Part shown: in pieces, positions 1,636 to 63,738 of the stretch
How positions within the stretch are numbered: the first letter of the stretch is position 1
Layout: every line of letters begins with the position of its first letter
Assembly (NCBI RefSeq): GCF_900090205.1
Contig: NZ_LT607802.1
Location: forward strand, 651,746 to 715,745
DNA: 64,000 bases
Source of the DNA: Vogesella sp. LIG4
GTDB taxonomy: Bacteria > Pseudomonadota > Gammaproteobacteria > Burkholderiales > Chromobacteriaceae
Reading direction: 5' to 3'
Position numbers and translations under genes: made by a program
Notes under the pieces: model-generated
The model's database searches: none
The model's input: only the letters and a program-made list of their open reading frames with translations
Told to the model about the DNA's origin: nothing

Positions 1636-2946
1636 ATGAAAAAGCAATTGCTTGCCGCCGCCAGCCTGCCCTGGCTGCTGACCGCACTGCCGGCACTGGC
1701 CGACAATACCGCCCCGACCCTGGTTGCGGCCAACACCATCAGCGCCGGCGACACCGCCTGGATGCTGACTTCCACCGCGCTGGTGCTGTTCATGACCATT
1801 CCGGGCCTGGCGCTGTTCTACGGCGGCATGGTACGCAAGAAGAACGTGCTGGCCACGCTGATGCAAAGCTTCGCCATCTGTGCCGCCATCACCGTACTGT
1901 GGGCCGTGGTGGGCTACAGCCTGACCTTCATGCCCGGCAACAGCCTGATCGGTGGTCTGGATCGCCTGTTCCTTGATGGCATGCTGTACCTGAAGGATGC
2001 CGGCAAGCTGACCGTGCACCCGCTGGCGACGACCATCCCGGAAGGGGTGTTCATGATGTTCCAGATGACCTTCGCCATCATCACCCCGGCACTGATCGCC
2101 GGTGCCTTTGCCGAACGCATGAAGTTCTCCTCCATGCTGGTATTCATGGTGCTGTGGTCGCTGGCGGTGTATGTGCCGGTAGCCCACTGGGTATGGGCAC
2201 CGGGCGGCTGGATGGGCGACAAGGGCGTGCTGGACTTCGCCGGCGGTACCGTGGTGCACATCAACGCCGGTGTGGCAGGCCTGATCTGCGCCCTGGTGCT
2301 GGGCAAGCGCGTGGGCTTCGGCAAGGAAGCGATGCCGCCGCACAACCTGGTGCTGACCCTGATCGGCGGCTCCATGCTGTGGGTGGGCTGGTTCGGCTTC
2401 AACGCCGGCTCTGCCGCCGCTGCTGACGGCCGTGCCGCCATGGCCATGGTAACCACCCAGGTAGCTACCGGTATTGCCGCGCTGGGCTGGATGGCTGCGG
2501 AATGGATCGCCAAGGGCAAACCGTCCGTACTCGGCATCGTGTCCGGTGCCGTAGCCGGCCTGGTGGCCATCACCCCGGCTGCCGGTTTCGTCGATCCGAA
2601 GGGCGCGCTGGCCATCGGCCTGATCGCCGGTGTGGTGTGCTACTGGAGCGCCACCAGCCTCAAGCACATGCTGGGCTATGACGATTCGCTGGATGCCTTC
2701 GGCGTACACGGCGTGGGCGGTATCATCGGCGCACTGCTGACCGGCGTGTTCGCAGTCAAGAACATCGGCGGCGTGGAAGGCAGCCTGTCCACCCAGGCAC
2801 TCGGTGTCGGCGTTACCGCGGTGTACTGCGCCACCGTCACTTTCGTGCTGCTGAAGGCCGTAGACGCCATCATGGGTCTGCGTGTCAGCGAGGAAGAAGA
2901 ACGCGAAGGCCTGGACGTGGTGCTGCACGGCGAACGCATCGAGTAA
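1636..2946 (+). CDS. amtB: Ammonium transporter AmtB
   Basis: A 436-residue inner-membrane ammonium channel of the Amt/Mep/Rh family. A cleavable signal peptide (about residues 1-22, ending ALPALA) precedes eleven hydrophobic segments. Family sequence such as DTAWMLTSTALVLFMTIPGLA, FAERMKFSS, VHINAGVAGL and HGVGGIIGALLTGVFA includes the pore His region. It forms an operon with glnK; GlnK docking on AmtB is the known control. RBS GAGAGGG lies before the ATG. One copy of the 10-mer TGCGGCCAAC lies inside the gene at 1725. Confidence 0.96.
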   Translation: MKKQLLAAASLPWLLTALPALADNTAPTLVAANTISAGDTAWMLTSTALVLFMTIPGLALFYGGMVRKKNVLATLMQSFAICAAITVLWAVVGYSLTFMPGNSLIGGLDRLFLDGMLYLKDAGKLTVHPLATTIPEGVFMMFQMTFAIITPALIAGAFAERMKFSSMLVFMVLWSLAVYVPVAHWVWAPGGWMGDKGVLDFAGGTVVHINAGVAGLICALVLGKRVGFGKEAMPPHNLVLTLIGGSMLWVGWFGFNAGSAAAADGRAAMAMVTTQVATGIAALGWMAAEWIAKGKPSVLGIVSGAVAGLVAITPAAGFVDPKGALAIGLIAGVVCYWSATSLKHMLGYDDSLDAFGVHGVGGIIGALLTGVFAVKNIGGVEGSLSTQALGVGVTAVYCATVTFVLLKAVDAIMGLRVSEEEEREGLDVVLHGERIE

Positions 2947-2954
2947 ACCTGCCT

Positions 2955-2979
2955 TGCGGCCAACTACAGGTTGGCCGCA
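2955..2979. repeat. TGCGGCCAAC inverted pair (uptake-signal-like)
   Basis: TGCGGCCAAC and its complement GTTGGCCGCA are separated by 5 bases and start 8 bp after the amtB stop. They could form a hairpin just before the rho-independent terminator. Confidence 0.9.
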
Positions 2980-2980
2980 G

Positions 2981-3017
2981 CAAAACAAAACCCCCGCGAT
3001 GCGGGGGTTTTGTTTTG
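2981..3017. terminator. Bidirectional rho-independent terminator between amtB and sspB
   Basis: A perfect 17-bp inverted repeat (CAAAACAAAACCCCCGC, 3-base loop GAT) with A/T-rich outer arms giving T-rich transcripts in both directions between convergent genes. Confidence 0.92.
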
Positions 3018-3027
3018 CTGCGGGACG

Positions 3028-3453
3028 TCAGCGCCGGCCAGGAAAGGTAATCACCTTTGCGCCCTTGCTCTCTTCCACCGGCTCGGCCGCCACAGGTGCG
3101 ACAGCCTCTGCCGGACGCGCCGGCGGCTCTGCACGCTTGGGCAGCGCTTCCAGTTCGAAGCCCATGCCCTCGCCGGATTCACGGGCAAAGATCGACAGCA
3201 CATTACCTATCGGAATCCAGATCTCGCGCGACACCCCGCCGAAGCGGGCAGAAAACGACAGCCACTCGTTGTCGATCTGCAGCCCCTGGGTGGCGCCATA
3301 GCCGACGTTCAGCACGATTTCGTTATTTTTCACATACTCCATCGGTACCTGCACGTTTTCGTCGACCCACACCACGATATAGGGCGTCTGCCCCTGGTCG
3401 GTACACCACTGGTGAAGGGCGCGGATGAGATACGGTCTGGTGCTGACAGTCAT
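3028..3453 (-). CDS. sspB: ClpXP specificity-enhancing factor SspB
   Basis: A 141-residue cytosolic adaptor that tethers ssrA-tagged proteins to ClpXP. The N-terminal substrate-binding domain (about residues 1-100) shows RPYLIRALHQWC, VNYGA-like GYGAT, and FSARFGGVSREIWIP. A Pro/Ala/Glu-rich flexible linker ends in a conserved ClpX-docking tail, KGAKVITFPGRR. It lies 9 bp downstream of sspA, the standard pair. Confidence 0.93.
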   Translation of the reverse strand: MTVSTRPYLIRALHQWCTDQGQTPYIVVWVDENVQVPMEYVKNNEIVLNVGYGATQGLQIDNEWLSFSARFGGVSREIWIPIGNVLSIFARESGEGMGFELEALPKRAEPPARPAEAVAPVAAEPVEESKGAKVITFPGRR

Positions 3454-3462
3454 GGCCGCTCC

Positions 3463-7857: not shown

Positions 7858-7887
7858 TGCGGCCAACCCTGCAAAAGGTTGGCCGCA
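7858..7887. repeat. TGCGGCCAAC inverted pair
   Basis: TGCGGCCAACC and GGTTGGCCGCA flank an 8-base loop directly beside the groL terminator. Confidence 0.9.
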
Positions 7888-7890
7888 AAG

Positions 7891-7943: not shown

Positions 7944-9608
<1,665 letters not shown>

Positions 9609-9631
9609 TTAAACGGTTGTAATGGGTCGGA

Positions 9632-9919
9632 TTACTCGACGATGCCCATTACGTCTTCTTCACGCATTACCAGCAGCTCCTCGCCGTCAACCTTTACGGT
9701 CTGGCCGGAGTACTTGCCGAACAGCACCTTGTCGCCTACCTTCAGCTCCAGGGCACGGCGCTCGCCGTTTTCCAGGATCTTGCCGTGGCCCACGGCCACA
9801 ACTTCGCCCATGTCCGGCTTCTCGGCAGCAGCGCCCGGCAGAACGATGCCGGAAGCAGTCTTCTCTTCAGCTTCAAGGCGCTTGATAACAACACGGTCGT
9901 GCAGAGGGCGGATTGCCAT
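9632..9919 (-). CDS. groS: Co-chaperonin GroES
   Basis: A 95-residue heptameric lid of GroEL. It begins [29 protein letters not shown] and contains the mobile loop [11 protein letters not shown] and the EDVMGIVE end. GGAGAG lies upstream of the ATG. It is the first gene of groSL, behind CIRCE and a sigma-32-type promoter. Confidence 0.96.
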
Positions 9920-9989
9920 TGATCTCTCCTGATGAATCAGTAGCTATGTAAACGATGATCTAGCTTGTGGGTGGGCAGGGATGCATCGA

Positions 9990-10016
9990 TTAGCACTCCC
10001 TGCTTGCGAGTGCTAA
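9990..10016 (-). promoter_or_regulatory. CIRCE operator (HrcA site)
   Basis: TTAGCACTC, 9 bases, GAGTGCTAA: a perfect match to the CIRCE inverted repeat bound by HrcA, located 70 bp before groS. Confidence 0.95.
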
Positions 10017-10018
10017 TC

Positions 10019-10045
10019 ATATGGGAGGGGACACCGGCTTTCAAG
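10019..10045 (-). promoter_or_regulatory. Sigma-32 (heat-shock) promoter of groSL
   Basis: On the minus strand CTTGAAA (10045-10039) and CCCATAT (10025-10019) are separated by 13 bases, matching the RpoH -35/-10 pattern. The promoter lies immediately upstream of CIRCE. The rest of the 350-bp gap up to galE shows no gene. Confidence 0.8.
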
Positions 10046-10270
10046 GGGCACTCTACAACTTACCTCCCTCCTCCAGACATGCTACGGCGTATGGCATAAT
10101 GAGCTCTTGCCAGCCGTGTATTCTCCATCGAAGAAATTTCGCGCCATGAAGCCCACCTCTCTACCACCACAGTTCCACCTCATACCACATCGCTCACATG
10201 CTCACCTTAGTCACGCCACACCAAAGAAAGTAGAAAGGCTTGAAACACAAACGGCACGTGGAGAGAAATC

Positions 10271-11275
10271 ATGATCCTTGTAACAGGCGGTGCAGGCTAC
10301 ATTGGTACTCACACATGTGTACAACTACTGGAGGCCGGCTACGATGTACTAGTGTTGGACAACTTCTCGAACAGCACACCGGAAGCGCTAAGGCGGGTAG
10401 AGCTGATTACCGGACGCCAAGTACACCTCATGGAGGGTGATCTGCTCAACCCGCAACTACTGGATCTGGTATTTCAATCCCCGATCAAGGCAGTCATCCA
10501 TTTTGCAGGACTCAAGGCAGTTGGTGAGTCTGTAGAACAGCCACTCGCCTATTACAATAACAATGTTGCTGCCACACTCATGTTGCTGCAGACAATGCAA
10601 CAACATGGCGTAAAGAACCTAGTGTTTTCATCCAGCGCTACCGTATACGGCGAGCCTGCAAGTGTCCCCATACGCGAAGACTTTCCCTTATCTGCAACCA
10701 ACCCGTACGGCCGCAGCAAGTTAATGGTTGAAGATATACTGCGTGACCTTGCCCACGCTAGTCCCGAATGGAATATCGCAATACTGCGCTATTTCAACCC
10801 AGTAGGTGCACATGTAAGTGGAATGATTGGGGAGGATCCCAATAGCACTCCAAACAATCTACTGCCTTTTATCAGTCAGGTTGCCATTGGCAGGCAGGCA
10901 AGTCTCAATGTGTTCGGCGCCGACTATACTACACCTGATGGAACAGGCATAAGGGACTACATCCACGTAGTTGACTTGGCAGAGGGTCACCTCAAGGCCC
11001 TGCAAGCTTTGCAAGACAAAGGAGGGATAATTACTGTCAACCTAGGAACTGGCAAAGGCTATTCGGTACTCGACGTGGTAAAGACCTTTGAAGCAGTAAG
11101 TGGCAAAACAGTACCGTATGAAATTGTACCCCGTCGTCCCGGCGACGTCGCAGCGGCATGGGCAGATCCCTCTGGGGCATATGAAATACTAGGTTGGTAC
11201 GCACAGAGAACTCTCCAAGAAATGTGTGAAGATGCATGGCGTTGGCAATGTCAGAATCCTATCGGTTACTCTTAA
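10271..11275 (+). CDS. galE: UDP-glucose 4-epimerase
   Basis: A 334-residue SDR-family enzyme interconverting UDP-glucose and UDP-galactose (possibly also the N-acetyl forms). It has the NAD motif TGGAGYIG at the N-terminus, the catalytic Ser in FSSSATVYG, the YxxxK pair in NPYGRSK, and RDYIHVVDLA. Base composition is intermediate between the flanking GC-rich DNA and the AT-rich glycan genes. It probably supplies galactose-type sugars to the cluster it leads. Confidence 0.92.
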   Translation: MILVTGGAGYIGTHTCVQLLEAGYDVLVLDNFSNSTPEALRRVELITGRQVHLMEGDLLNPQLLDLVFQSPIKAVIHFAGLKAVGESVEQPLAYYNNNVAATLMLLQTMQQHGVKNLVFSSSATVYGEPASVPIREDFPLSATNPYGRSKLMVEDILRDLAHASPEWNIAILRYFNPVGAHVSGMIGEDPNSTPNNLLPFISQVAIGRQASLNVFGADYTTPDGTGIRDYIHVVDLAEGHLKALQALQDKGGIITVNLGTGKGYSVLDVVKTFEAVSGKTVPYEIVPRRPGDVAAAWADPSGAYEILGWYAQRTLQEMCEDAWRWQCQNPIGYS

Positions 11276-11478
11276 ATTTTATTTATGAGCCCCCAGCAAT
11301 ATGACAATTGATACCACACTACGCTCGTCGAAACAGGAACAGGGACATTGCCTCTCTTGACCGGCCCCAATGTCACTGATTCGAATCAGTCCATTACCAA
11401 GAGAATTTGTCACGGAAAACGGAAAATTTCGCAGACAAGAAATAAATATCCAACCTCACGGCATAAAATGGAATAGGC

Positions 11479-12609
11479 ATGCTCAAAAAAATACTCATTG
11501 CTTTTGGCACACGACCTGAAGCCATTAAAATGGCCCCACTGATCCGCACTCTAAAAAAAGACCCACGCTTTGAAATTAAAGTTTGTGTAACTGCACAACA
11601 TCGCCAAATGCTCGATCAAGCTTTAGAGCTATTTCAGATTCGGCCAGACTTTGATTTAAATATCATGCAACCGGGCCAGGATCTAACCGATATAACCAAT
11701 TGTGTCCTACAAGGTATGAAGGGTGTTTTAACACAATGGCGACCGCATATTGTTCTGGTCCATGGCGATACTTCGACCACCATGGCAGTAAGCCTTGCCG
11801 CATATTACCAGCAGATTGCCGTAGGACATGTAGAAGCAGGCCTGCGAACAGGGGAAATTTACTCTCCCTGGCCAGAAGAAATGAATAGAAAAATTGCCAG
11901 CTGCATCAGCACACTTCATTTCGCACCAACAGAAACAGCCAAGAATAATTTACTTAAAGAAAATATTAAGCCATCATCTATTCACGTCACAGGCAACACG
12001 GTGATAGATGCATTGCTTGATGTAGATAGCGTCGTTCGAAATGATAAAAAAATCAACCAACTCCTCACAAAGCAATTTTCGTTTCTTGACCCTCAAAAAA
12101 AACTCATACTAGTCACCGGGCATCGTCGAGAAAATTTCGGGGAAGGATTCGATAAAATATGTAAAGCACTTTCCACAATAGCAAAAAGAGCTGACATACA
12201 GATTTTATATCCAGTCCACTTGAACCCAAACGTTCAAAATCCAGTAAAAAAAACATTGGGAGCCCAATCAAATATCCACTTGATTGAGCCACAAGATTAT
12301 TTACCATTCGTGTATCTTATGGGTCGAAGCTATTTAATTTTAACTGATAGCGGCGGCATTCAAGAGGAGGCTCCAGCATTAGGCAAACCCGTCCTTGTGA
12401 TGCGAGAAACTACTGAGCGTCCAGAGGCGGTTGCTGCAGGGACTGTCAAGCTAGTCGGGACCGAGCCTGAATTAATTTTACACGAAGCAATTAGGCTTAT
12501 TGATAGTCCCGTTGCATATACAGAAATGTCTCGTGCACACAACCCGTATGGCGATGGGAAAAGCTCTCTTTACATTAGAGATATCTTAGTGAAAACACAA
12601 CTTGAATGA
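11479..12609 (+). CDS. wecB: UDP-N-acetylglucosamine 2-epimerase (non-hydrolysing)
   Basis: A 376-residue cytosolic enzyme making UDP-ManNAc from UDP-GlcNAc. Family motifs are [49 protein letters not shown] and [12 protein letters not shown]. No ManNAc dehydrogenase (wecC) follows, so ManNAc itself may be the incorporated sugar (inference). AT-rich composition marks the start of the probably acquired block. Confidence 0.92.
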
Positions 12610-12625
12610 CGCTGAAATCTCACCC

Positions 12626-13768
12626 ATGACTATCACCATCCTCACACCAACATTCAACGATGAAGTTCATTTATCTTCACTAATACATTCTGTTCTATCA
12701 CAAGACTACACCGAATGGCAGTGGATCATCATCAATGACGGCTCAACAGATAATACGCATTTCCGATTAAATAAATTAGCGGACTCACGCATAAAGGTCA
12801 TCCACCAGAGTAATACTGATCAACTTAATGCCCTGCTTGCTGCCGTACCATTTATTATGGGTGAATTTATTTGTTTAATGCACTCAGATGATTACTTTGT
12901 CAGCAACACAACACTGCGAGAAGTGGCTGACAGGCTACATCACCTGAAGTGCGACGGAGTATATGCCGATTATAAATTAATAGATAAAAATGGTAACGAC
13001 AGCGGATTCTTACATGTGCCAACGCAATTAAACACAAAAATTTCTCGAAAAATTATGATAGGAATGGGAGGAAATCCAATAGGCGACCCATTCTTTGTGC
13101 GGCGCAATGCATTTTTTAGCCATGTATTACCAAACTATATAAAACAAAACACCATTTATTATCTAAATTATTTTAACTTGAAACCGCTATATTTACAGAA
13201 AATTGAGCCTTGGTACTGTTATCGAGTTTTTGATGAAAATTACATTCACTCAGACATCGGCAAATTTGTTGCACTATCCGGCCAATTCCGAACCACATCG
13301 CGCATCCTGGCCGCTGGCTTTGATTTTTCAGGCAACACTGCTTGGGGTTATTGTTTTTTTAGGATATTTAGGAAAATCTCGATAACCCCACCAAATATAC
13401 TGAAAGTCCCTTGCGAACTTGGTGCTTTCCAATATTTCATATATTGGGCCAAAGACCTGGAAAGATATGGCTATCCCGAAATACTAATAGACATGGCACG
13501 AGCAATTGGAAAATCATTCAAATCAAAAAATAAAAAACAGCATAAATGTCTCAAAATAGTGCTATCACGTGAACTAGAGTACACCCCAGCAGATGCAAGA
13601 CAATTTTACAAGGATCATATAAAAGGAAATGTGCCAGAAATATATTATTCATTAATTAAAAGCGACTATGATTATATAGAAGTAAAATCATACGAAGAAA
13701 AAATTAAACTACAAAAAATCCTTGATTTTCTATCACTACAGTATTTTATTGCAATAAACTCACCATGA
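12626..13768 (+). CDS. Family 2 glycosyltransferase
   Basis: A 380-residue GT-A protein. The N-terminal domain shows ITILTPTFNDEVHL, WIIINDGSTDNT and the DxD-like HSDDYF. The remainder is poorly conserved and may set acceptor specificity. A TTG start at 12602 is possible and would overlap wecB by 8 bp; the ATG at 12626 is preferred because TPTFND is normally near the N-terminus. The stop overlaps the next gene's ATG (ATGA), implying translational coupling. Sugar and linkage cannot be deduced. Confidence 0.82.
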   Translation: MTITILTPTFNDEVHLSSLIHSVLSQDYTEWQWIIINDGSTDNTHFRLNKLADSRIKVIHQSNTDQLNALLAAVPFIMGEFICLMHSDDYFVSNTTLREVADRLHHLKCDGVYADYKLIDKNGNDSGFLHVPTQLNTKISRKIMIGMGGNPIGDPFFVRRNAFFSHVLPNYIKQNTIYYLNYFNLKPLYLQKIEPWYCYRVFDENYIHSDIGKFVALSGQFRTTSRILAAGFDFSGNTAWGYCFFRIFRKISITPPNILKVPCELGAFQYFIYWAKDLERYGYPEILIDMARAIGKSFKSKNKKQHKCLKIVLSRELEYTPADARQFYKDHIKGNVPEIYYSLIKSDYDYIEVKSYEEKIKLQKILDFLSLQYFIAINSP

Positions 13769-14976
13769 AAATTCTATTAGTTTCCCAAGACAACTCCGAA
13801 AAGCTAAATATAGGCGGAAAGCACATTCACCAAAATTTGTTAATAGCGGCTTGGCGAAAACAGGGACATGAAGTTCGCACCATTTTCCCTCGCCCTCAAA
13901 AAATCACAATGCCAATATGGACACGTATTATATTTCGAATTAGTCGAACATGGTCGACTTTCCCTGTATTTTTTTTCAAAAAATATCTAAGAAAAATAAA
14001 AAATGAACTGATTCATAATTTACATCAGTCCATGACGGATTTTTCACCCGATTTAATTAGCGCTCAAGACCCCATGGCAGCCGTTGCTTGCTCGGCTGCT
14101 TTACAGCCACATAAGGGAGCACTCCCACGTATAGCACTCACTCTACATGGATATTATACGTGGGAAATGATAAATTATGGCTATTATGGTGAACATAACA
14201 AACCTACAATAGAAAAAATCGGCTTTGAATTGGAACGTGAGGCTTTAGAGAAAGCGAATTCTGTTATCACTGTAGATAGTCGAATTCGGGATTACCTACA
14301 AACGCAACATGGCTTTACGGAGCCTGTGGATGTAATTTTTAATGCCATAAATATTGAGCCGTTTCAACAGCCTATAAATCAAGAAGTAATGCACCTGCAA
14401 AAGAGACTCGCACCGAATGGAGAAAAAATAATTTTAATAGCCCGTCGTCTAGTATTAAAAAATGGTGTACATGTAGCCATCTCTGCCATTGCGCTTTTGA
14501 TACCACTGAAAAAAAATATTCGCCTCATAGTTGTCGGAGACGGGCCAGAAAGTTTTAATTTACAGTCTCAAGCAAAAACATTAGGCATTGAATCTTACAT
14601 CGACTTTATCGGTAACATCGACCATAGCGACATTCACAATTATTATAGAGCTGCAGATATTTTATTGATGCCATCAATTCCTTCCGATGGAATTGAAGAG
14701 GCCACATCGCTTAGCATGCTTGAAGGAATGGCCGCAGGAAAACTGGTAATTTGCAGTGCCATAGGAGGAATGAAAGAAATTATCATTCACAAAAAAAATG
14801 GATACCTTGTTAAATCTAACAACCCACAAAATCTATCAGAACTTCTAAATGATTTATTAGAAACCCCCCCCGATCAGCTAGATGAAGTGTGTACGCAAGC
14901 TAGACAGTTTGCTTTTGACAACCATGACTACAACAGCCATGCCCGGAAAATACTTTCCAAGATGAGCCAAAATTGA
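13765..14976 (+). CDS. Family 4 glycosyltransferase (GT-B)
   Basis: A 403-residue retaining glycosyltransferase. The N-terminal half has GGKHIHQNLL and TLHGYYTWEM. The C-terminal Rossmann domain has IARRLVLKNGVHVAI, VVGDGPE and the EX7E-type segment EEATSLSMLEGMAAGK followed by IGGMKEII. An 8-base C run at 14864-14871 encodes Thr-Pro-Pro near the C-terminus and could slip. The start overlaps the previous stop by 4 bp. Confidence 0.85.
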   Translation: MKILLVSQDNSEKLNIGGKHIHQNLLIAAWRKQGHEVRTIFPRPQKITMPIWTRIIFRISRTWSTFPVFFFKKYLRKIKNELIHNLHQSMTDFSPDLISAQDPMAAVACSAALQPHKGALPRIALTLHGYYTWEMINYGYYGEHNKPTIEKIGFELEREALEKANSVITVDSRIRDYLQTQHGFTEPVDVIFNAINIEPFQQPINQEVMHLQKRLAPNGEKIILIARRLVLKNGVHVAISAIALLIPLKKNIRLIVVGDGPESFNLQSQAKTLGIESYIDFIGNIDHSDIHNYYRAADILLMPSIPSDGIEEATSLSMLEGMAAGKLVICSAIGGMKEIIIHKKNGYLVKSNNPQNLSELLNDLLETPPDQLDEVCTQARQFAFDNHDYNSHARKILSKMSQN

Positions 14977-16331
14977 ATTTCTTATTTTCATATCGACAGG
15001 GTCAAGGTACGGCTAGAAAAATATTATTTTTTAGCGAGAACGCCAATAAAGGCTTAGGGTATTTGCGTAACCTTATCATTAGTTGGAGCATTGGCTTCTC
15101 TAATCTCAGCGATCTATACTTTTTTATTTTTGGGATAGCCACATCAGTTTCAAGTATTTTGAGTGGCGCATTGAGTGCAACATTTATTCCCTATTCCCAA
15201 CGATTAGGCAGTCGGAACAAGCGAAGATTGCTAGGAGTGATAATAATAGCATTTACTATTATCTATCTGGCAATCACAATATTTGCATGCATTTTAATGA
15301 TTGCTTTCTCTCCGAACCGATCATTACAGGCACTATCCACTCACTCAATGGGCGTAATGATAATATCAGGTGTAATCCTCACCTTCTTATTTTTCCAATT
15401 AATTCAAATTGCCGACGAATACTTCAAATCTAGAAGAAATTTTCTTTTCGGAGCTTTAAGTTATTTAACCATCAACGGCATAGCAATCATTATTCTATAT
15501 TGCTACTTAAACAAAAATATATGGCTCATAGGATGGGCATCCATTCCTCCAGCTGCCTTTATTTGCATAACTATCTACAGCAAACTTAATCTAGTACTTT
15601 TTAATGGGAAAGACAATATAGCACCTTATTTGCGGCAAACTTTTCCATTAATAATTAGTGGGTCGATGGGAATGATTAACGTTTTCATCGATAGATGGTT
15701 TGCAGCAGGCTTTCCGGAGGGTCGTCTCAGTATTTTGCAAACAGCTCTACTTTTAGTTACCCAGCTAGGAGGGGTTCCTATTAATCCATCAATTAATTCC
15801 GCCTATCCATTCATATCCTCCCTTTATAAAAAAAACGACATGGAGAAGGCCATTATCACGATTAGAACGGTAGAGAAACGAATTATATCTTGGCTTACTA
15901 TTTTTACTATTGGGTATGTCCTTCTAGGCGAAAAAATTATTCGTATTTTCTATCATCACGGCCAAGTAAATCTCAGCAATATTCATGACATTCATCGTAT
16001 CGGAATTGTATACTTACCAGTACTATGGTATTCAAGCTTAGTTAGCCTCTATTTACGAATATTATATTGCAATCAGATTATCCGATTTCCAGCAATTTGC
16101 AGCGCTGCTGTCATTATTTTCAATATTGCTCTCAACTGGTTATTTTCTGAATGGCTTGGTTGGCAAGGTCTAGCATTGGCAGCAGCGGTATCTGCCGGAG
16201 TCTACTATCTTTGTCTCGCCGCTTTTTTACGCAAAATAAATCTATACAATGCCAGCACTTTGCATGTCATATTAATTAATATTCCACCTATTTTAATGTT
16301 TATTCCTTTTATTGAGAAATTCAATATATGA
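14973..16331 (+). CDS. MurJ/MviN-like lipid-linked glycan flippase
   Basis: A 452-residue polytopic membrane protein of the MOP superfamily with about 12-14 hydrophobic segments. MurJ-like stretches are GATS-equivalent FGIATSVSSILSGALSATFIPYSQ and DRWFAAGFPEGRLSILQTA. It probably exports the undecaprenyl-linked repeat unit made by the surrounding transferases, i.e. a Wzx role (inference). The only start in reach is TTG at 14973, overlapping the previous stop (TTGA). A true housekeeping MurJ would normally not lie in a glycosyltransferase cluster. Confidence 0.8.
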   Translation: MNFLFSYRQGQGTARKILFFSENANKGLGYLRNLIISWSIGFSNLSDLYFFIFGIATSVSSILSGALSATFIPYSQRLGSRNKRRLLGVIIIAFTIIYLAITIFACILMIAFSPNRSLQALSTHSMGVMIISGVILTFLFFQLIQIADEYFKSRRNFLFGALSYLTINGIAIIILYCYLNKNIWLIGWASIPPAAFICITIYSKLNLVLFNGKDNIAPYLRQTFPLIISGSMGMINVFIDRWFAAGFPEGRLSILQTALLLVTQLGGVPINPSINSAYPFISSLYKKNDMEKAIITIRTVEKRIISWLTIFTIGYVLLGEKIIRIFYHHGQVNLSNIHDIHRIGIVYLPVLWYSSLVSLYLRILYCNQIIRFPAICSAAVIIFNIALNWLFSEWLGWQGLALAAAVSAGVYYLCLAAFLRKINLYNASTLHVILINIPPILMFIPFIEKFNI

Positions 16332-17368: not shown

Positions 17369-17370
17369 CA

Positions 17371-18507: not shown

Positions 18508-18600
18508 ACATGCCTATAAACATATATTATACAATTCTTCAAAATTACCAGCGCTCTTTACCCTATTTACACTGCGAAAATTAATTTCCCAAATTTCAAC

Positions 18601-19701: not shown

Positions 19702-19741
19702 TCTTCCACTATTGACAATACAACTTCACTTCATACGGGCG

Positions 19742-20333: not shown

Positions 20334-20404
20334 TGTCTTTCATACCATTACCATAGCTGGGTATAACACCGAATATGGTTATGTCTGCATTAAAAAATTT
20401 CATT

Positions 20405-21708: not shown

Positions 21709-23175
<1,467 letters not shown>

Positions 23176-44092: not shown

Positions 44093-44102
44093 TGCGGCCA
44101 AC
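44093..44102 (+). repeat. TGCGGCCAAC single copy
   Basis: Exact 10-mer in the 69-bp gap between the second permease and the AotO-like gene. Confidence 0.85.
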
Positions 44103-45325: not shown

Positions 45326-45335
45326 TGCGGCCAAC
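45326..45335 (+). repeat. TGCGGCCAAC single copy
   Basis: Exact 10-mer followed by CTT, one base beyond the Lrp-regulator stop codon. Confidence 0.88.
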
Positions 45336-45880: not shown

Positions 45881-45890
45881 TGCGGCCAAC
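45881..45890 (+). repeat. TGCGGCCAAC single copy
   Basis: Exact 10-mer in the divergent gap between the Lrp regulator and the small gene at 45998. Confidence 0.85.
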
Positions 45891-49364: not shown

Positions 49365-49384
49365 TGCGGCCAACGTTGGCCGCA
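49365..49384. repeat. TGCGGCCAAC perfect palindrome
   Basis: TGCGGCCAACGTTGGCCGCA, 12 bp beyond the pth stop, between pth and ychF. Confidence 0.92.
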
Positions 49385-52515: not shown

Positions 52516-53093
52516 GGCTGGGTAGAAAGCGGGGATGAGGCGTCGCTGCCGCGCCAGTCGGAGAACACCAGGCGGATGCTCAGGCCTTCGCGCTCCAGCT
52601 CCAGCCGGCGTGGCAGATGGGTGGTGGCGTCCTGGCTGTGGCGGATCAGCCAGCCCTGCTGCTGCAGGCGGCCGTCCGCAGCCTGCTCCGCCTGGATGCC
52701 GGGCGCGGCCAGGCCGCGCGCCCACCAGGCCAGATTGGACAGCGGCAGCGGCCAACCCAGGGTGTCCTCGGTCAGGCTTTCCACGTCGGTGGCCCGGCGC
52801 TCCTGGCCATCGGCCAGCAGGCGCACGCCGCTGGCATCGCGCCGCAGGCTGGCCACGGTGGTGCCGATGGGGGTTTTGACGTTGAGCTGGTCACTGCCGG
52901 CGCTGTGCTGCCAGTCGAAGCTGGCAAGCTGCCCCCTGCCCTGGTAGTTCACCGCCAGGCGGCCGCTGGTGCTGAACGGGCTGTCGACAACGTTGGCCGC
53001 AGGGGCCGACATGGAATGGCTTACTTCCGGGGTGGTGGCGCAGGCTGCCAGCAGCAGCAGGCAACCCGACACCAGCCAGTGGGCTAACTTCAT
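52512..53093 (-). CDS. lolB: Outer-membrane lipoprotein receptor LolB
   Basis: A 193-residue lipoprotein that accepts lipoproteins from LolA and inserts them in the outer membrane. The lipobox LLAAC is at residues 14-18, then [17 protein letters not shown] and the LolB fold with [22 protein letters not shown]. It overlaps the TPR gene upstream and ispE downstream by 4 bp each. The repeat 10-mer occurs inside at 52992. Confidence 0.92.
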
Positions 53094-54844
53094 GGTTTGA
53101 TGCGGTCCAGGGTTTCCTTCAGCACCGGGTGGTCCGGCGCGCTCTTGCGGGCTTCGTCCCAGACATGCCGGGCTTCATCCTTGCGGCCCAGCGACCACAG
53201 CACCTCGCCCAGGTGGGCGGCCACTTCGGCATCCGGCAACCGGGCATAGGAGGCCTGCAGATGCGGCAACGCCTCGCTGGCAAGCCCCTGCTTGAACAGC
53301 ACCCAGCCCAGGCTGTCGAGAATCATGGCATTGTCCGGCTCGGCCTTCAGCGCGCGCTGGATGTAGCTCTGTGCTTCTTTCAGCTGCACGCCGCGGTTGG
53401 CCATGACGTAGCCCAGCGCGTTGAGGCCCTGCACATCGTCCGGCTTCAGCCGCACCACGGTGCGCAGATCCTGCTCCGCCTCGGCGGAACGGCCCAGCTG
53501 ATCAAGCAGCAAGGCGCGCTCGTACAAGAGGTCGGTCTGTTCCGGGTCCTGCTTCAGCGCACCGCCAAGAATGCCCAGGGCGGCATCGTACTGTTTGGCG
53601 TCTCGCGCCAGCATGGCCTGCGCTTCGGCAATGCGCTCGCTGTCCGCCTGCTGCTCGGCCAGGTTGTTGAGGCTGTCGATGGCCTCGCGCCACTGGCCGT
53701 CGGCAGCCTGGATCTGCGCGGCACGCACCCGTGCCTGCAACAGGCTGTCGCCGCCATCCACCTGCATATACCAGCGGCGGGCTTCTGCCGGCTGCTTCAG
53801 TTCGTCGGCCAGCTGGCCCAGGGTGAAGCGCAGCGTATTGCTGTCGCTGTAGCCGGCGCGCAGCGCGGCTTCCAGCAGTTTGCGTGCCTGCGGCAGCTCG
53901 CCGGTCTGGTAGGCCAGCAGGCCATGCAGGTACAGCAGTTCGCCGTTGTTGGCAAAGCGGCTCTCGATACTGGCGGCATGCGCCTCGGCCTCGGCAAAAC
54001 GCTTTTCGCCGGCCAGCAGGCGGATATAGCTGGTATTCAGTTCGATGCTGGACTGCGGGCGGCGCGCCAGTTCCTGTTTCAGGAAGCTGATGGCATCGGC
54101 TGCCGACTGGCGGCGCAGGCGGTCCACCTGCCACAGCACCGGCAGATCCCACTGCGGCGCGGTACGCGCCAGTTGCGCGAACCCGCTATCCACCGTGGGC
54201 TGGTCGCCCGCCTCGGCGGCCACCGCGATCAGCGCGAAATGCGCCTCCGGCAGGTCCGGGTAGCGTGCGGCCAACTCGCTGACCAGGGTTTCGGCGCCCT
54301 GCTTGTCGCTCTGTACCGCGGCCAGGCGCGCCAGTTGCACGAACACGCCGGCGGCGCGTTGCGGCTGGCGCGCCAGCTCGGCTTCGATCAGCGGACGGCT
54401 TTCCGCCAGCTTGCCGCCACGCAGCAGCGCGATGATCAGCTGTTCACGCGCGGTGTCCGCGGTCGGCTCCAGCTCCAGCCACAGCGACAGCGCGGTGGTG
54501 GCGCTTTGCAGCTGGCCGGCAAACATGGCGAATTCGGCGGCGCGGCGGGCGATGCGCGGGTCGCGGCTTTCGCGCGCCAGGGCGATATAGGTTTCGGCCG
54601 CCTGCGGTGCGGCGCCGTTGCGGGCCGCCATTTCACCGGCCAGCAGGCCGTACAGCCACTCGGCACGCAGTTGCTGGTGCGGAATGGCCGGGTTGTCTTC
54701 ATCACGCGGCGGCGCGTCGTCGGCCGCGGCACTGGCCGCCTTGCTCGCCTGGGCGTTGGCCGCGGGCGCGGCGTGGGGCAGGCTGGCACATGCCGACAAT
54801 GCCAGCGGCGTGAGTACGGCAAACAGACGGAACAAAGCGTTCAT
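53090..54844 (-). CDS. TPR-repeat lipoprotein
   Basis: A 584-residue protein with a lipobox (LALSACAS) and many tetratricopeptide repeats, especially at residues 390-580 ([65 protein letters not shown]). Similar genes precede lolB in Pseudomonas and Neisseriales. The likely role is envelope assembly, not proven. Translationally coupled to lolB. Confidence 0.88.
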
Positions 54845-54913: not shown

Positions 54914-55729
54914 ATGCCCGAATTACCAGAAGTCGAAACCACGCGCCGCGGCGTCGCGCCACAACTGGAAGGCGCCACCGTGCGCGAAGTGATCGTGCGC
55001 GAGGGGCGCCTGCGCTGGCCGATTCCGCCGCAGTTGCCGGCGCTGCTGGCCGGCCGCTGCGTACGCAGCGTGAGCCGGCGCGCCAAATACCTGCTGGTGG
55101 ATTTCGAGCATGGCACGCTGATCGTGCATCTGGGCATGTCCGGCAGCCTGCGTTTCGTGGCGCCGGGCACCGAGCCGGAGAAGCATGACCATGTAGACAT
55201 CGTGCTGGGGCAAACGGTTCTGCGTTATCGCGACCCGCGCCGCTTTGGCGCCATGCTGTGGCAGCAGGGGCCGGTGGAGGCGCACCCGCTGCTGGCGAAC
55301 CTCGGCCCGGAGCCGCTGTCCGATGCTTTCGGCGGCGAAGTGCTGTACCAGGCCAGCCGCCGCAAGGGCAGCGCCATCAAGCTGCTGATCATGGACAACC
55401 ACGTGGTGGTGGGGGTGGGCAATATCTACGCCAACGAGTCGCTGTTCTACGCCGGCATCCACCCGGCGCGTGCGGCCAACTCGCTGCGCCGCGAGGAGTG
55501 CGAACGCCTGGCCGCCGAGATCAAGTCGGTGCTGGCGCGCGCCATCGAGGCCGGCGGCAGCACGCTGCGCGATTTCATCGACGCCAAGGGCAAGCCGGGT
55601 TACTTCCAGCAAAGCTACAAGGTGTACGGCCGCCGCGAGCAGCCTTGCCACGACTGCGGCACGCTGATCTGCGAAATCCGCCAGGGCCAGCGCAGCACCT
55701 GTTTCTGTCCGCACTGCCAGCCGCTGTAA
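54914..55729 (+). CDS. mutM: Formamidopyrimidine-DNA glycosylase
   Basis: A 271-residue repair enzyme excising 8-oxoguanine. It has the catalytic N-terminal [13 protein letters not shown] (Pro2, Glu3), [29 protein letters not shown] (helix-two-turn-helix) and the zinc finger CHDCG...CFCPHCQ at the C-terminus. It is divergent from the TPR-lolB-ispE operon. The repeat 10-mer at 55471 encodes RAAN. Confidence 0.96.
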
Positions 55730-55787: not shown

Positions 55788-56552
55788 GTGCACCAGACCA
55801 CCTCCCTGCTTGTCCGCCTGCTCCGCATCGCCCGTCTTGCCGCGCACGTTTTCCGCGGCGTGATCACCATTGCCACGCTGTACCCGCGGCTGTCGCAGCC
55901 GGAAAAGGCGGTAATCACCCAGCGCTGGTCGCAGCAGCTGCTGCACATTCTGGCCATCAAGGTGAAGGTGACCGGCCAGGCGCCTGGCGTCTACCCGCCG
56001 CACACCCTGGTGGTAGCCAATCATGTGTCCTGGCTGGACATCTTCGCGCTCAACAGCGTGACGGTTTCGCGCTTCGTGGCCAAGAAGGAGCTGCGCGACT
56101 GGCCGCTGGCCGGCTTCCTGATCAAAAGCGCCGGCACGCTGTTCATCGACCGCAGCAAGCGCCGCGATACCAGCCAGGTGAACAAACAGTTGGCCGCAGC
56201 ACTGCACAACGGCGACTGCATGGCGGTGTTTCCGGAAGCCACCACCTCGGACGGCACCGGGCTACTGCCGTTCAAGTCCTCGCTGTTCGAAGCCGCACGG
56301 CTGGCCGGCGCCACGGTGCAGCCGGTGGCGATCCGCTACGTGTCGCCCGGCGGCCATTACTGTGCCTCCGCCGCCTATGCCGGCGATACCAGCTTCGGCC
56401 AGAGCCTGTGGGCGGTGCTGTCCACCCGCGCCATGGTGGTGGAGCTGAGCTTCACCGCCGCCATGCCGGCCGCCGACGCCAGCCGCTTCGCACTGTCCGA
56501 ATCGTCCCGCAGCGCCATTGCCGCCGCGCTGGACCTGCCCGCCGACGCCTGA
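55788..56552 (+). CDS. 1-acyl-sn-glycerol-3-phosphate acyltransferase-like protein
   Basis: A 254-residue PlsC-family acyltransferase. Motif I is NHVSWLD, motif II SAGTLFIDRSKRRD, motif III FPEATTSDG and motif IV PVAIRYV. An N-terminal hydrophobic segment anchors it to the inner membrane. The start is GTG. It may act in phospholipid or ornithine-lipid synthesis; the acceptor is not known. Confidence 0.85.
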   Translation: MHQTTSLLVRLLRIARLAAHVFRGVITIATLYPRLSQPEKAVITQRWSQQLLHILAIKVKVTGQAPGVYPPHTLVVANHVSWLDIFALNSVTVSRFVAKKELRDWPLAGFLIKSAGTLFIDRSKRRDTSQVNKQLAAALHNGDCMAVFPEATTSDGTGLLPFKSSLFEAARLAGATVQPVAIRYVSPGGHYCASAAYAGDTSFGQSLWAVLSTRAMVVELSFTAAMPAADASRFALSESSRSAIAAALDLPADA

Positions 56553-58147: not shown

Positions 58148-58157
58148 TGCGGCCAAC
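58148..58157 (+). repeat. TGCGGCCAAC single copy
   Basis: Exact 10-mer followed by CTT, one base beyond the apaH stop codon. Confidence 0.88.
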
Positions 58158-58997: not shown

Positions 58998-59007
58998 TGC
59001 GGCCAAC
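58998..59007 (+). repeat. TGCGGCCAAC single copy
   Basis: Exact 10-mer followed by CTTGGCC, in the apaH/rep divergent gap. Confidence 0.88.
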
Positions 59008-59148: not shown

Positions 59149-61167
59149 ATGTCACTTGCCTTACTCAACCCGCAGCAGCGCGCCGCCATCCAGTCGCTGG
59201 ACGGCCCGCTGCTGGTGCTCGCCGGCGCCGGCTCCGGCAAGACGCGGGTGATTACCCAGAAAATTGCCTACATGGTGCGCGAGGCGAATTTCGACGCCCG
59301 CAACATCGCCGCCATCACCTTCACCAACAAGGCCGCGCGCGAGATGCTGGAGCGCGTCGGCAAGCTGATGGACAGCCGCGAACTGAAGGGCATCACCGTC
59401 TCCACCTTCCACTCGCTGGGCATGCATTTTCTGCGCCAGGAGGCCCCGCACCTGGGCTACAAGACGCAATTCTCCATTTTGGACAGCTACGACGCCGCCA
59501 AGATCATTGCCGACATTCTGAAATCCACCCACAAGGACGAGGTGCGCAAGGTGCAAAGCCGCATCTCGCTGTGGAAGAACGACCTGCTCGGCCCGGATGC
59601 CGCGCTCGTGGCCGCCGCCGACGAATTCGACCGCGTGGCCGCCACCACCTATGTGGCCTACCAGGACACGCTCACCGCCTACCAGGCGCTGGACTTCGAT
59701 GACCTGATCCGCTTGCCGGTGGAACTGCTGCGCACCAATACCGAGGTGCTGCAGAAGTGGCAGCACAAGCTGCGCTACCTGCTGATCGACGAATACCAGG
59801 ACACCAACACCTGCCAGTACCAGTTGGTGAAGCTGCTCACCGGCGAGCGCGGCATGTTCACCGCAGTGGGCGACGATGACCAGTCCATCTACGCCTGGCG
59901 CGGCGCCAACATGGAAAACCTGCGCCTGCTGCAGCATGACTTCCCGCGGCTGAAAGTCATCAAGCTGGAGCAGAACTACCGCTCCACCGCGCGCATCCTG
60001 CGTGCGGCCAACTCGGTGATCGCCAACAACCCCAAGCTGTTCGAAAAACAGCTGTGGAGCGAGCTGGGGCTGGGCGAGCAGATTCACGCGGTCATGTGCA
60101 AGGACGAGGAGCACGAGGCCGAAGTGGTGGTGCAGCGCCTGCTGGCGCACAAGTTCGAGCACCGCACCGAGTTCAAGGACTACGCCATTCTCTATCGCGG
60201 CAACTACCAGTCGCGTGTGTTCGAGCAGGCGCTGCGCAACCAGCGCATCCCCTACCAGATGGCCGGCGGGCAGAGTTTCTACGACAAGCCGGAAATCAAG
60301 GACGTGCTGGCCTACATGCGGCTGCTGGCCAACCCGGACGACGATCCGGCCTTCATCCGCGCACTCACCACCCCCAAGCGCGGCGTGGGCGCCGGTACGC
60401 TGGAAAAGCTGGGCAACTGGGCCCGGCAGCGCAATTGCAGCCTGTTCGCCGCTGCGCACGAGGAGGGTTTCCAGCTGCAGGTCAACGCCGCCCAGCTGGC
60501 GCCGCTTGCCGACTTCTGCCGCTTCATCAATGCCCTGACCTACCGCGCGCTGCGCGAGCCGCCGGGTGAGCTGGCCATGGAGATGCTCAAGTCCATCGGC
60601 TACGAAGCCTGGCTGTACGACAGCGAGGACAGCCCCAAGGCGGCGGAGAGCAAGTGGAAGAACGTGTTCGAGCTGGTAGCCTGGCTGCAGCGCAAGGGCG
60701 AGCAGGATGGCAAGAACCTGCTGGAACTCACCCAGACCATTGCGCTGATCACCATGCTGGAAGGCCGAGACGAGGGCGAGGTGGATGCGGTGCACATGTC
60801 CACCCTGCACGCCTCCAAGGGGCTGGAGTACCCGCACGTGTTCCTGGTGGGCTGCGAGGAAGGCATCCTGCCGCACAGCGAATCCGTCGATAACGGCATG
60901 GTGGAAGAAGAACGCCGGCTGATGTACGTCGGCATCACCCGCGCCCAGCGCAGCCTCACCCTCACCTACTGCGTGAAGCGCCGCCGCGGTGGCGAATGGC
61001 TGTTCGTGGAGCCGTCGCGCTTCATCGCCGAAATCAGCGGCGACGACCTGCGCCACTTCGGCAAGAAGGGTGCCGAGCCCATCGTCAGCAAGAATGAGGG
61101 CAAGAGCCGGCTGGCCGGGCTGATGGCCTCGCTGGACAGCAAGGTGCAAAAGGGCGGCGACAGCTAA
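59149..61167 (+). CDS. rep: ATP-dependent DNA helicase Rep
   Basis: A 672-residue UvrD-type superfamily 1 helicase. Motif I AGAGSGKTRVI, Ia ITFTNKAAREM, II LLIDEYQDTN, III GDDDQSIYAWRGA, IV LEQNYRST, V STLHASKGLEY and VI EERRLMYVGITRAQ are all present. Length matches E. coli Rep, which clears proteins ahead of replication forks. The start at 59149 matches the family N-terminus (LNPQQRAAI); an ATG at 59116 is an alternative. Confidence 0.95.
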   Translation: MSLALLNPQQRAAIQSLDGPLLVLAGAGSGKTRVITQKIAYMVREANFDARNIAAITFTNKAAREMLERVGKLMDSRELKGITVSTFHSLGMHFLRQEAPHLGYKTQFSILDSYDAAKIIADILKSTHKDEVRKVQSRISLWKNDLLGPDAALVAAADEFDRVAATTYVAYQDTLTAYQALDFDDLIRLPVELLRTNTEVLQKWQHKLRYLLIDEYQDTNTCQYQLVKLLTGERGMFTAVGDDDQSIYAWRGANMENLRLLQHDFPRLKVIKLEQNYRSTARILRAANSVIANNPKLFEKQLWSELGLGEQIHAVMCKDEEHEAEVVVQRLLAHKFEHRTEFKDYAILYRGNYQSRVFEQALRNQRIPYQMAGGQSFYDKPEIKDVLAYMRLLANPDDDPAFIRALTTPKRGVGAGTLEKLGNWARQRNCSLFAAAHEEGFQLQVNAAQLAPLADFCRFINALTYRALREPPGELAMEMLKSIGYEAWLYDSEDSPKAAESKWKNVFELVAWLQRKGEQDGKNLLELTQTIALITMLEGRDEGEVDAVHMSTLHASKGLEYPHVFLVGCEEGILPHSESVDNGMVEEERRLMYVGITRAQRSLTLTYCVKRRRGGEWLFVEPSRFIAEISGDDLRHFGKKGAEPIVSKNEGKSRLAGLMASLDSKVQKGGDS

Positions 61168-61183: not shown

Positions 61184-61209
61184 GGTTGGCCGCACGCTTG
61201 CGGCCAACC
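61184..61209. repeat. TGCGGCCAAC inverted pair in outward order
   Basis: GGTTGGCCGCA, CGCT, TGCGGCCAACC: here the complement comes first, unlike the other pairs. The 11-bp stem lies 16 bp after the rep stop. Confidence 0.9.
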
Positions 61210-62264: not shown

Positions 62265-62267
62265 TAT

Positions 62268-62465
62268 TTATCCCCCCGATTCCAGTACCTCCACCACCCT
62301 GCTGCGTCGCATTTGCGATTCAAGATACTGCCGAATCTCCGCTCGCAGCGGATGGCGGTGAATCTGCAGCATCAGCTGCGCCGCCTGTAATGCATGCTCC
62401 CGCGTCGGATGCAGCGCCCCCTCATCAACCCCAAATACCCTGGAAACCAGCCTCAGGCGAAACAT
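62268..62465 (-). CDS. Possible small hypothetical protein
   Basis: A 65-residue frame beginning MFRLRLVSRVFGVDEG with a plausible amphipathic helix (REHALQAAQLMLQIHRHPLRAEIRQYLES). No ribosome-binding site is visible and no family is recognised. It sits in a 549-bp gap between tRNA-Arg and the Nudix gene; the remaining bases of the gap, which are AT-richer from 62460 to 62740, show nothing else. Confidence 0.3.
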   Translation of the reverse strand: MFRLRLVSRVFGVDEGALHPTREHALQAAQLMLQIHRHPLRAEIRQYLESQMRRSRVVEVLESGG

Positions 62466-62776
62466 CGTTATTCACACCGTATTGTTGCAACACTTGCCCT
62501 GGTAAACGGTAGGCTGATTCGATGACAAACTCGATAAGCAAGATACCTTGGCCCAGCTGCCTGTCGAACAATCAGCCAAACAAACGCCGTTCCGGCGGCC
62601 ATTCTCATTACAAAATCATAAAGTGCTGCAGCACTTGCACCACAAGCCGGCGAGCAAGCATGCAACACCCACCAGCCATTCACAGCGCAAAATACTGCAA
62701 AACCGGGGGCCAAGCCCCACGGCCCGGCATTTTCTCCGTAAGATGTCGCCTTCGTTTAATACCTGGTGGGTAAATC

Positions 62777-63655
62777 ATGCAAGCGCGAGCGGTCGCCAGT
62801 GCTTTACAGCAGATGATCGAATACGACAAGACCGGCTTCGTTCCGCTCCATGTCGCAGGCGAGCCCCTGGGCTGCGTCAACCAGCAGTGGCTGCAAAGGC
62901 TGCAGGCGGAATATAGTTCGCTGTTCCGCCTGGAACAAGGTGTACTGACCGCGCTACCCGCTGCGCATGATTTTGCCGAACGCAGCCGCCAGCTTGCCCA
63001 GACCGCCACCCAGTGGCGTGATGCCGGTTGGCTGAATGGTTGGCGCAACGAGAAATTCATGGCCTATTTCCAGGACGGCACCCCCTGTTTTGAAATGGAG
63101 CGCGCTGCATTCCGCCCGCTGGGTCTCACCAGCCGCGCCGTACACCTGAATGGCCTCACCCGCATGCCGGATGGCGAAATCCGCATGTGGATCGGCAGAC
63201 GCAGCCCGTTCAAGGACGTTGCCCCGAATCGCCTCGACAACCTGATGGGTGGTGGCATTGCCGCCGGAGAAACCCTGCAGGTGGCACTGGAGCGCGAAGG
63301 CTGGGAAGAAGCAGGTATTCCGGCCAGCAAGCTCGAACTGCTGCCACAGGCCGCCCTGCTGCTGGCCGAGCGCCCGGTAGCCCGTGGCCTGCACCGCGAA
63401 TGGCTGCACGTCTTCGACGTCTGGCTGGATACGCAGGAAATCCCGCAGAATCAGGATGGAGAAGTGGAAGCCCACCTGCTGATGCCGCTGGCAGAAGTGG
63501 AGCAACACCTCATCAACGGGCAGTTCATGAGCGATGCCGCCCTGGCCGCCATCGACTGTATGGCGCGCCTTGGCTATTGGGGCCAGGACGCGGCACTCGA
63601 TGCCCTGCTGGCGCAAGTACGCGCCCCGATAGGCAGCGATATCGCCATTCGCTGA
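62777..63655 (+). CDS. Nudix hydrolase with thiamine-pyrophosphokinase-like N-domain (DUF4743)
   Basis: A 292-residue protein. The N-terminal 115 residues resemble the DUF4743 region found before Nudix domains in thiamine-pyrophosphokinase-related proteins. The Nudix box is GGIAAGETLQVALEREGWEE at about residues 158-177, followed by AGI; the hydrophobic position after RE is Gly. Yeast relatives act on oxidised thiamine diphosphates; the substrate here is not known. Confidence 0.87.
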   Translation: MQARAVASALQQMIEYDKTGFVPLHVAGEPLGCVNQQWLQRLQAEYSSLFRLEQGVLTALPAAHDFAERSRQLAQTATQWRDAGWLNGWRNEKFMAYFQDGTPCFEMERAAFRPLGLTSRAVHLNGLTRMPDGEIRMWIGRRSPFKDVAPNRLDNLMGGGIAAGETLQVALEREGWEEAGIPASKLELLPQAALLLAERPVARGLHREWLHVFDVWLDTQEIPQNQDGEVEAHLLMPLAEVEQHLINGQFMSDAALAAIDCMARLGYWGQDAALDALLAQVRAPIGSDIAIR

Positions 63656-63677
63656 TCAGCCCGCAGCGCACGCTACT

Positions 63678-63703
63678 AAGCCCGCATCAGCGGGCTTTTT
63701 GTT
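63678..63703 (+). terminator. Terminator after the Nudix gene
   Basis: AAGCCCGC/GCGGGCTT, ATCA loop, then TTTTTG. Confidence 0.9.
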
Positions 63704-63718
63704 TGACTGATGCGAATC

Positions 63719-63738
63719 TACGGCCAACGTTGGCCGCA
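63719..63738. repeat. TGCGGCCAAC palindrome, one arm degenerate
   Basis: TACGGCCAACGTTGGCCGCA: the left arm has TAC for TGC, the right arm is exact. It lies between the Nudix terminator and the rRNA terminator. Confidence 0.85.

Follow-up and report, generated by a model that had tools for sequence, protein, structure and literature searches.

A highly over-represented 10-mer of Vogesella as a probable DNA uptake sequence with a divergent ComP as its likely reader

Copies of the 10-mer in the window

The window, by which we mean the whole 64-kb stretch of Vogesella DNA analysed here, holds 23 plus-strand and 15 minus-strand exact copies of the 10-mer TGCGGCCAAC, and every one of the 38 coordinates listed in the original prediction proved correct. 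No other 10-mer of the window is as frequent (n=38), the top non-overlapping one having n=11. The longer form TGCGGCCAACCTT, to which many copies had been said to extend, does exist, but it accounts for only 8 of the 38, so that "many" comes to about a fifth. GC content is 59.6% rather than the roughly 62% first estimated because of an island of surface-polysaccharide-type genes at 8500..21000 with only 43% GC; outside this island (8.5-21 kb) the window has 63.6%. The island is without any copy, none being found from 7888 to 21199, as is typical of the negative space left by recently acquired DNA. At its far edge a single copy, 21200..21209 (+), lies in a glycosyltransferase ORF, 20405-21574(-), that was missed by the gene caller from which our called genes derive.

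Single copies within called genes are found at 1725..1734, 34863..34872, 36346..36355, 40011..40020 and 54266..54275 on the plus strand, at 21874..21883, 25983..25992, 33828..33837, 35330..35339, 37484..37493, 41552..41561, 52992..53001 and 56189..56198 on the minus strand, within a decarboxylase-like gene (31134..31143, +) and within rep (60003..60012, +). A further one (55471..55480, +) lies in the mutM part of ORF 53129-55729(+), where the gene caller chose the wrong strand. Two plus-strand copies, 45326..45335 and 58148..58157, fall between convergent called genes, and those at 29850..29859, 32631..32640, 35586..35595, 44093..44102, 45881..45890 (all +) and 63729..63738 (-) are not in called genes. 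The copies at 52992, 55471, 58148 and 60003 are intact in beta proteobacterium L13, from which the copy upstream of rep (58998..59007, +; present in G010 and G005) is absent.

The remaining copies form six inverted pairs which, in agreement with the original description of pairs near gene ends, are each separated by 7 to 250 bp from a called gene's 3′ end. Two follow plus-strand genes of convergent couples, at 2955..2979 (9 bp past the gene end) and, as an abutting pair, at 36524..36543 (7 bp past it). Minus-strand genes have their 3′ ends 57 bp from the pair at 7858..7887 and 13 bp from the abutting pair at 49365..49384; in L13 the plus-strand half of the latter is intact and the other half is not. 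A third abutting pair, 23143..23162, is a 20-bp perfect palindrome between two minus-strand genes; the distance to the 3′ end of the right-hand gene is 250 bp. The last, 61185..61208, lies 18 bp past the rep helicase gene, and both g4 genomes and G014 (g3) likewise have a pair downstream of rep, each in its own dialect.

Excess in the genome and spellings in relatives

The whole genome carries 1437 + 1458 = 2895 copies, about 360 times the 4 + 4 = 8 of a reversed-word control. The count is thus far from expectation, closeness to which had been named in advance as telling against the proposal, and strand use is near-equal as foreseen (binomial p 0.71). When 464 kb of the genome are considered, the word again ranks first among 10-mers, as predicted, with n=326 compared to 107 for the top non-overlapping 10-mer. 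An order-4 Markov model expects 7.2 copies in these 464 kb, and masking the sites from the background lowers this to between 2.6 and 4.5, so that the word is in 70- to 125-fold excess. Statistically, it extends by n-T-T on the 3′ side, with T frequencies of 0.56 and 0.55, and the full extended form is w-TGCGGCCAAC-n-T-T.

Within the genus, 13 of 13 genomes have 1,871 to 2,895 copies, compared to 8 to 58 in 24 other genomes of the family. Sister genera differ in the first two bases and retain the core CGGCCAAC, spelling it TTCGGCCAAC in 8 genomes (183 to 2,168 copies) or CTCGGCCAAC in two (1,590 and 1,940 copies); genomes bearing the motif range from 2.9-4.9 Mb. As sister genera spell this core in ways of their own, the dialects form a family apart from the CTG-core DUS of Neisseria, and the proposal of a candidate new DUS dialect is not only supported but can be taken further. 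Among the literature matches listed, which are open-access PMC texts judged mostly by title and abstract start, none reports these words as uptake sequences, though Table S1D of PMC3630211, giving top 10-mers for Laribacter, Lutiella, Pseudogulbenkiania and two Chromobacterium genomes, might contain one. In five genomes of Chromobacterium type, a paper of 2013 reports that no DUS is obvious. One match to CTCGGCCAAC is a cloning primer.

Distribution and alternative explanations

A highly iterated word kept by methylation or restriction, in the manner of HIP1, would fit the many exact copies on both strands, the lack of any overall excess among one-mismatch variants and the GGCC inside TGCGGCCAAC. 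However, HIP1 is palindromic, and TGCGGCCAAC, which is not its own complement, is non-palindromic. The first two bases also vary among sister genera while the core is kept, low-GC islands are avoided (10 of 22 low-GC 4-kb bins are empty, compared to 0 of 90 others) and spacing is more even than chance (short gaps 8.2% against 15.4% simulated; CV 0.85 against 0.96). We therefore consider an origin of this kind very unlikely. With low GC taken as a proxy for foreign origin, the word is scarce in recently acquired DNA, a property it shares with the DUS/USS class along with being short, present hundreds to thousands of times per genome, far over expectation, equal on both strands and dispersed more evenly than at random.

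A smaller chance still is given to a chromosome-organisation signal, similar to KOPS, Chi or AIMS, to which a translocase or recombination enzyme would bind. That the word is short, exact, genome-wide and genus-specific would fit, but the orientation of such signals follows replication, and here 162 copies lie on the leading and 164 on the lagging strand of the 464 kb (assigned per stretch from the sign of the GC skew), with no sign of the expected leading-strand bias. Nor would abutting inverted pairs, or absence from acquired islands, be expected of them.

The inverted pairs might instead be intrinsic terminators or REP-like elements, with the single copies as their debris. Close inverted pairs do hold 76 of the 326 sites, their six representatives in the window sit at gene 3′ ends, and called genes, which cover 82% of the sequence, contain only 59% of the copies. 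Yet 250 of the 326 sites are single, 191 lie within called genes and 135 outside, so that the word is dispersed both within genes and between them, with the tolerance in coding regions originally claimed for it, and a T-run is found within 12 bases of only 4 of 35 close pairs. We hold this account to be more improbable than either of the preceding two; an uptake sequence is not at odds with some secondary role for its pairs at gene ends. Finally, codon usage or a recurrent protein motif, suggested by the 167 of 191 genic copies that fall in three frames, has a negligible chance of generating the word, given that in the Leu-Ala-Ala frame it occurs at 135 times the codon-use prediction despite rare codons (TTG is 4.6% of Leu, GCA 8.3% of Ala), that the three other frames tested reach 14 to 50 times, and that the copies outside called genes would be left over.

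The putative reader, the proposed system and its relation to known ones

The genome encodes PilQ, ComEA, ComEC and a ComP-like minor pilin, so the competence genes whose absence had been raised as a possible objection are in place. Among solved structures, the DUS receptor ComP of Neisseria is the closest to this pilin in both sequence and fold: the top PDB matches of the Vogesella and sibling pilins are 2m3k, 5hz7 and 2nba, all of them ComP, though the margin of the Vogesella match is small (E 2.6e-4). It adopts the ComP fold with 24% identity to 5hz7 over the aligned fold. Against Pfam PF16732 it scores 23.8 bits, just under the gathering score of 27.3, which is passed by the orthologue in G008 of the same genus (32.5 bits) and by 6 of 6 sister-genus orthologues tested (39 to 64 bits), motif-free genera included; comP is kept in these as well. 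A prepilin start, a Trp-Pro-x-Leu-Pro segment and the fold are common to the Vogesella pilin and Neisseria ComP. Unlike the latter, the Vogesella gene follows a fimT-like gene about 2 kb from pilQ, and its product has an RNTDNG loop.

We are highly confident that the genus uses w-TGCGGCCAAC-n-T-T as its DNA uptake sequence, with uptake via the divergent ComP. The 10-mer itself, in ~2,900 copies, is very probably a self-recognition tag for DNA uptake; we infer that it promotes uptake and that ComP reads it. Competent cells would bind free DNA bearing the word through the divergent minor pilin on the type IV pilus, draw it in through PilQ and hand it on through ComEA and ComEC. Fragments with the tag would be preferentially taken up and recombined, and the tag would therefore persist and be replenished in the core genome, be scarce in recent foreign DNA, and sit at low-cost sites such as synonymous codons and gene 3′ ends. 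Sister genera would read TTCGGCCAAC and CTCGGCCAAC as variants of one core, giving the family its own dialects. Overall this is best read as a new uptake-sequence family that has genus-level dialects and whose readers are divergent ComP orthologues.

On balance we lean towards a history in which the ComP/uptake-sequence system predates the split between the Neisseriaceae and this sister family, the reader was re-tuned from a CTG core to the CGGCCAAC core with genus-level dialects, and the tag was then lost in several genera that keep comP with an altered loop. If so, the family is a naturally occurring series from which ComP's reading of DNA could be deciphered. The specificity-setting parts of ComP are hard to learn from eight published DUS dialects with one core in common. 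With a second core, unrelated to the first and apparently recognised by orthologous pilins, with dialects 1-2 bases apart and with tag-free sister genera that carry comP, both the reader code and the origin of uptake specificity can be tested directly. The word is also a candidate tag for constructing DNA that may be taken up by these environmental bacteria, and it can serve to mark foreign islands in their genomes.

Among known systems, HIP1 of cyanobacteria is similar in its extreme exact over-representation, and different in its symmetry; to our knowledge it has no pilin partner. The Pasteurellaceae USS, with the core AAGTGCGGT in H. influenzae, is likewise a dense short tag on both strands, and its TGCGGTCA is similar to TGCGGCCA of the Vogesella word. 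This resemblance is likely a coincidence: the USS-like variant with T at position 7, TGCGGTCAAC, shows no enrichment (0 copies, 0.2 expected), the TG is not kept by Vogesella's sister genera, and the predicted USS reader ComN/PpdA (PMC12616744) is a different pilin from ComP.

According to PMC3630211, the eight published DUS dialects all have CTG at +6 to +8 and A at +10, and PMC12061091 also places CTG in DUS. Unlike these, TGCGGCCAAC, TTCGGCCAAC and CTCGGCCAAC all lack both CTG and CAG, bearing out the claim that the core is distinct from that of Neisseria. The Neisseria DUS core GCCGTCTGAA has 0 copies in the 464 kb and five other DUS dialect cores have 0 to 8 each, and the host belongs to a different family of the order. 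What is common to the two is a similar copy number, core-sharing dialects a few bases apart, paired copies and a ComP minor pilin as reader, putative in Vogesella: PMC3630211 gives ~1900 AT-DUS in N. meningitidis and 943 to 5918 DUS in other genomes, includes AT-DUS, AG-DUS, mucDUS and kingDUS among the Neisseriaceae dialects, and describes paired dyad copies in some species.

Abundance and placement of the 10-mer

All 38 copies of the 10-mer located in the original prediction are present in the window (C1:651746–715745), and the expectation of genome-wide over-representation was borne out: the single contig of 4,147,242 bases has 1437 copies on the forward strand and 1458 on the reverse, compared to 4 and 4 for the reversed word. 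When considering a 464-kb sample, consisting of the window and 20 stretches scattered across the genome, it tops all 10-mers with 326 copies against 2.6–4.5 expected (sites masked from the background). Extension beyond the ten bases is weak: the preceding base is A or T at 0.62, and the second and third bases 3′ are T at 0.56 and 0.55, which persists at 250 unpaired sites (0.53 and 0.49).

There is no leading-strand bias in the sample (162 leading vs 164), and spacing is more even than random. Gaps below 300 bp make up 8.2% compared to 15.4% for random placement processed alike (0 of 2000 simulations as low), gaps above 5 kb 1.5% compared to 3.2% (72 of 2000), and the gap CV is 0.85 compared to 0.96 (24 of 2000). 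Copies avoid low-GC DNA: 4-kb bins in the lowest GC fifth hold 1.18 copies and 10 of these 22 are empty, three of the empty ones lying in an island of the window, while none of the remaining 90 is empty. This 43% GC island has zero copies across 13.3 kb (for any one given stretch this long, the chance is about 9e-5). The region (8500–21000) contains galE, a UDP-GlcNAc 2-epimerase, glycosyltransferases and a MurJ-type flippase-like protein, and is probably an acquired surface polysaccharide cluster.

Genes called by a simple gene caller cover 82% of the 464 kb and hold 191 of the 326 copies (59%), a mild depletion within genes. The caller is rough, with mutM called on the wrong strand and the low-GC island left without genes, because of which the site at 21200 was scored outside genes though it lies within a glycosyltransferase ORF. 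Copies within genes outnumber the prediction from codon use: the word occupies 74 of 97 Ala-Ala-Asn sites (1.5 expected), 42 of 77 Val-Gly-Arg sites (1.4), 8 of 11 Cys-Gly-Gln sites (0.6) and 51 of 379 Leu-Ala-Ala sites (0.38), the last in a frame that requires rare codons.

A partner in opposite orientation lies within 60 bp of 76 of the 326 copies, and one in the same orientation of none. The claim that inverted pairs sit near gene ends also held, as all six in the window are intergenic, 7 to 250 bp from at least one called gene 3′ end. Two tandem tRNA-Gln (TTG) genes, spaced 25 bases, lie at 51475–51653.

Spellings across the family and turnover of sites

The word has 1,871 to 2,895 copies in all 13 genomes of its genus, 8 to 58 in the other family genomes checked for this spelling (24 of 48), and 2 to 40 in 24 genomes from other families of the order. 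Genomes found via named loci gave 16 copies (uncultured Neisseriales), 12 (Chitinibacter tainanensis), 0 (a Neisseriaceae MAG) and 1166 + 1276 (‘beta proteobacterium L13’; control 5 + 4); the last counts equal those of G007, so L13 is taken as that member of the genus.

Sister genera have their own spellings. In 20-kb samples, TTCGGCCAAC (TT-type) is the top 10-mer in three of eight sister-genus genomes and CTCGGCCAAC (CT-type) is among the top in one. In counts over the 61 genomes of the family, TTCGGCCAAC proves abundant in g2 (G013 1104, G022 893, G029 183), g3 (G014 2168, G023 579), g5 (G016 1245), g10 (G021 1851) and a sole one of ten g6 genomes (G017 1368), and CTCGGCCAAC in g4 (G024 1940, G015 1590). 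The intermediate counts of G023 and G029, with CTCGGCCAAC at 165 and 55, possibly reflect dialect change or loss under way. Common to all spellings is CGGCCAAC; two bases further on, T is the most frequent base in all but one of the eight genomes drawn, G015 (18 sites). In all, 23 family genomes are motif-bearing and 38 motif-free (9 g6, 19 g7, 6 g8, 4 g9), two of the g8 ones being slightly raised (G027 62 and 92, G036 45 and 85). Of 243 genomes from the order's other families, none shows clear enrichment in TCGGCCAAC.

Two other kinds of repeat were seen: ACGCCAACGC-type words (about 20 copies in 20 kb of G014, locus L089), seemingly a tandem repeat, and a dispersed family in motif-free G077 of g7 (L211–L216), which includes words like GAAGCGGTAG and CATGAGCATT at 11 copies apiece in 113 kb and is not DUS-type.

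Between the window and L13, five of nine aligned sites are intact compared to 20.9% of all aligned 10-mers, and sites are thus kept above average, yet turning over. Downstream of the helicase gene rep we compared 24 sequences, 16 motif-bearing (L13 and G007 probably being one genome) and 8 motif-free. Five of the 16 carry an inverted pair: the genome under study and G010 have the TG-type (the original spelling), the two g4 genomes the CT-type and G014 the TT-type. An intact pair is absent from L13, G003, G007 and G009 of the own genus, both g2 genomes, G016, G017, G023 and G021; G005 retains a single degenerate half, and none of the eight motif-free sequences has the pair.

A ComP-like pilin as candidate reader

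Competence genes, the lack of which would have spoken against the prediction, are present, with ComEA and PilQ above cut-off in all 13 own-genus genomes. ComEC passes its cut-off in 57 of the family's 61 genomes and falls short in G001, G008, G021 and G031, the last two having split matches.

PF16732 matches pilins in all family genomes. In g3, g4 and g5 there is one distinct in look from PilE-like pilins, and the closest solved relative of that in g4 is ComP (2nba, 1e-12). A profile built from five pilins of this type matches one protein of the own genome over its full length (C1:1559005–1559412, E 1e-25) and also has matches in the other genera, g9 excepted. The start of this gene, at L208:9003, overlaps the end of a fimT-like gene with a GspH domain, and the pilQ match lies roughly 2 kb away. 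The order in C1:1559002–1562800 (L208) is fimT-like gene, comP, pilQ; in G003 and G007, too, some 2 kb separate the comP and pilQ matches.

The top three PDB matches of the protein are ComP, as for that of G008. For its predicted structure (pLDDT 91.7), ComP takes the first two places in Foldseek and heads the VIA-align table, though the NMR ComP entries come fifth and eighth there. Motif-free orthologues (G077, G030) also find ComP first, with better E-values than the own protein.

We aligned 30 orthologues (24–56% identity to the own protein), which represent 13 of 23 genomes with a motif and 17 of 38 without. Inspection of the alignment led us to choose a loop, N-[TAV]-D-x-G; 12 of the 13 motif-bearing rows have it, compared to none of the 17 motif-free ones (Fisher p 1.5e-7 on 30 rows, ignoring shared ancestry), or 6 of 7 compared to 0 of 3 by lineage. 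Seven added motif-free proteins (five g6/g7, one partial g6, one g8) also lack it, making the motif-free total 0 of 24. The best single contrast is G017, which has the loop, against its examined g6 congeners, which do not. Motif-bearing G021 has two tandem ComP-like genes (L167:6667–7637), the second without the NTDxG loop.

Relation to known uptake sequences

In PMC3630211, eight DUS dialects are described, every one with CTG, and five Laribacter, Lutiella, Pseudogulbenkiania and Chromobacterium genomes are said to have no obvious DUS; the eight dialects and their conserved CTG core are restated in PMC12061091. Among the literature matches listed, none reports the own or sister words as uptake sequences, Table S1D of PMC3630211 lying outside the comparison. 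The word probably works like a DUS and is probably read by a ComP orthologue. Since the published dialects all have CTG and no listed report covers these words, we judge it DUS-like and, compared to the DUS of Neisseriaceae, outside the CTG-core dialect set.
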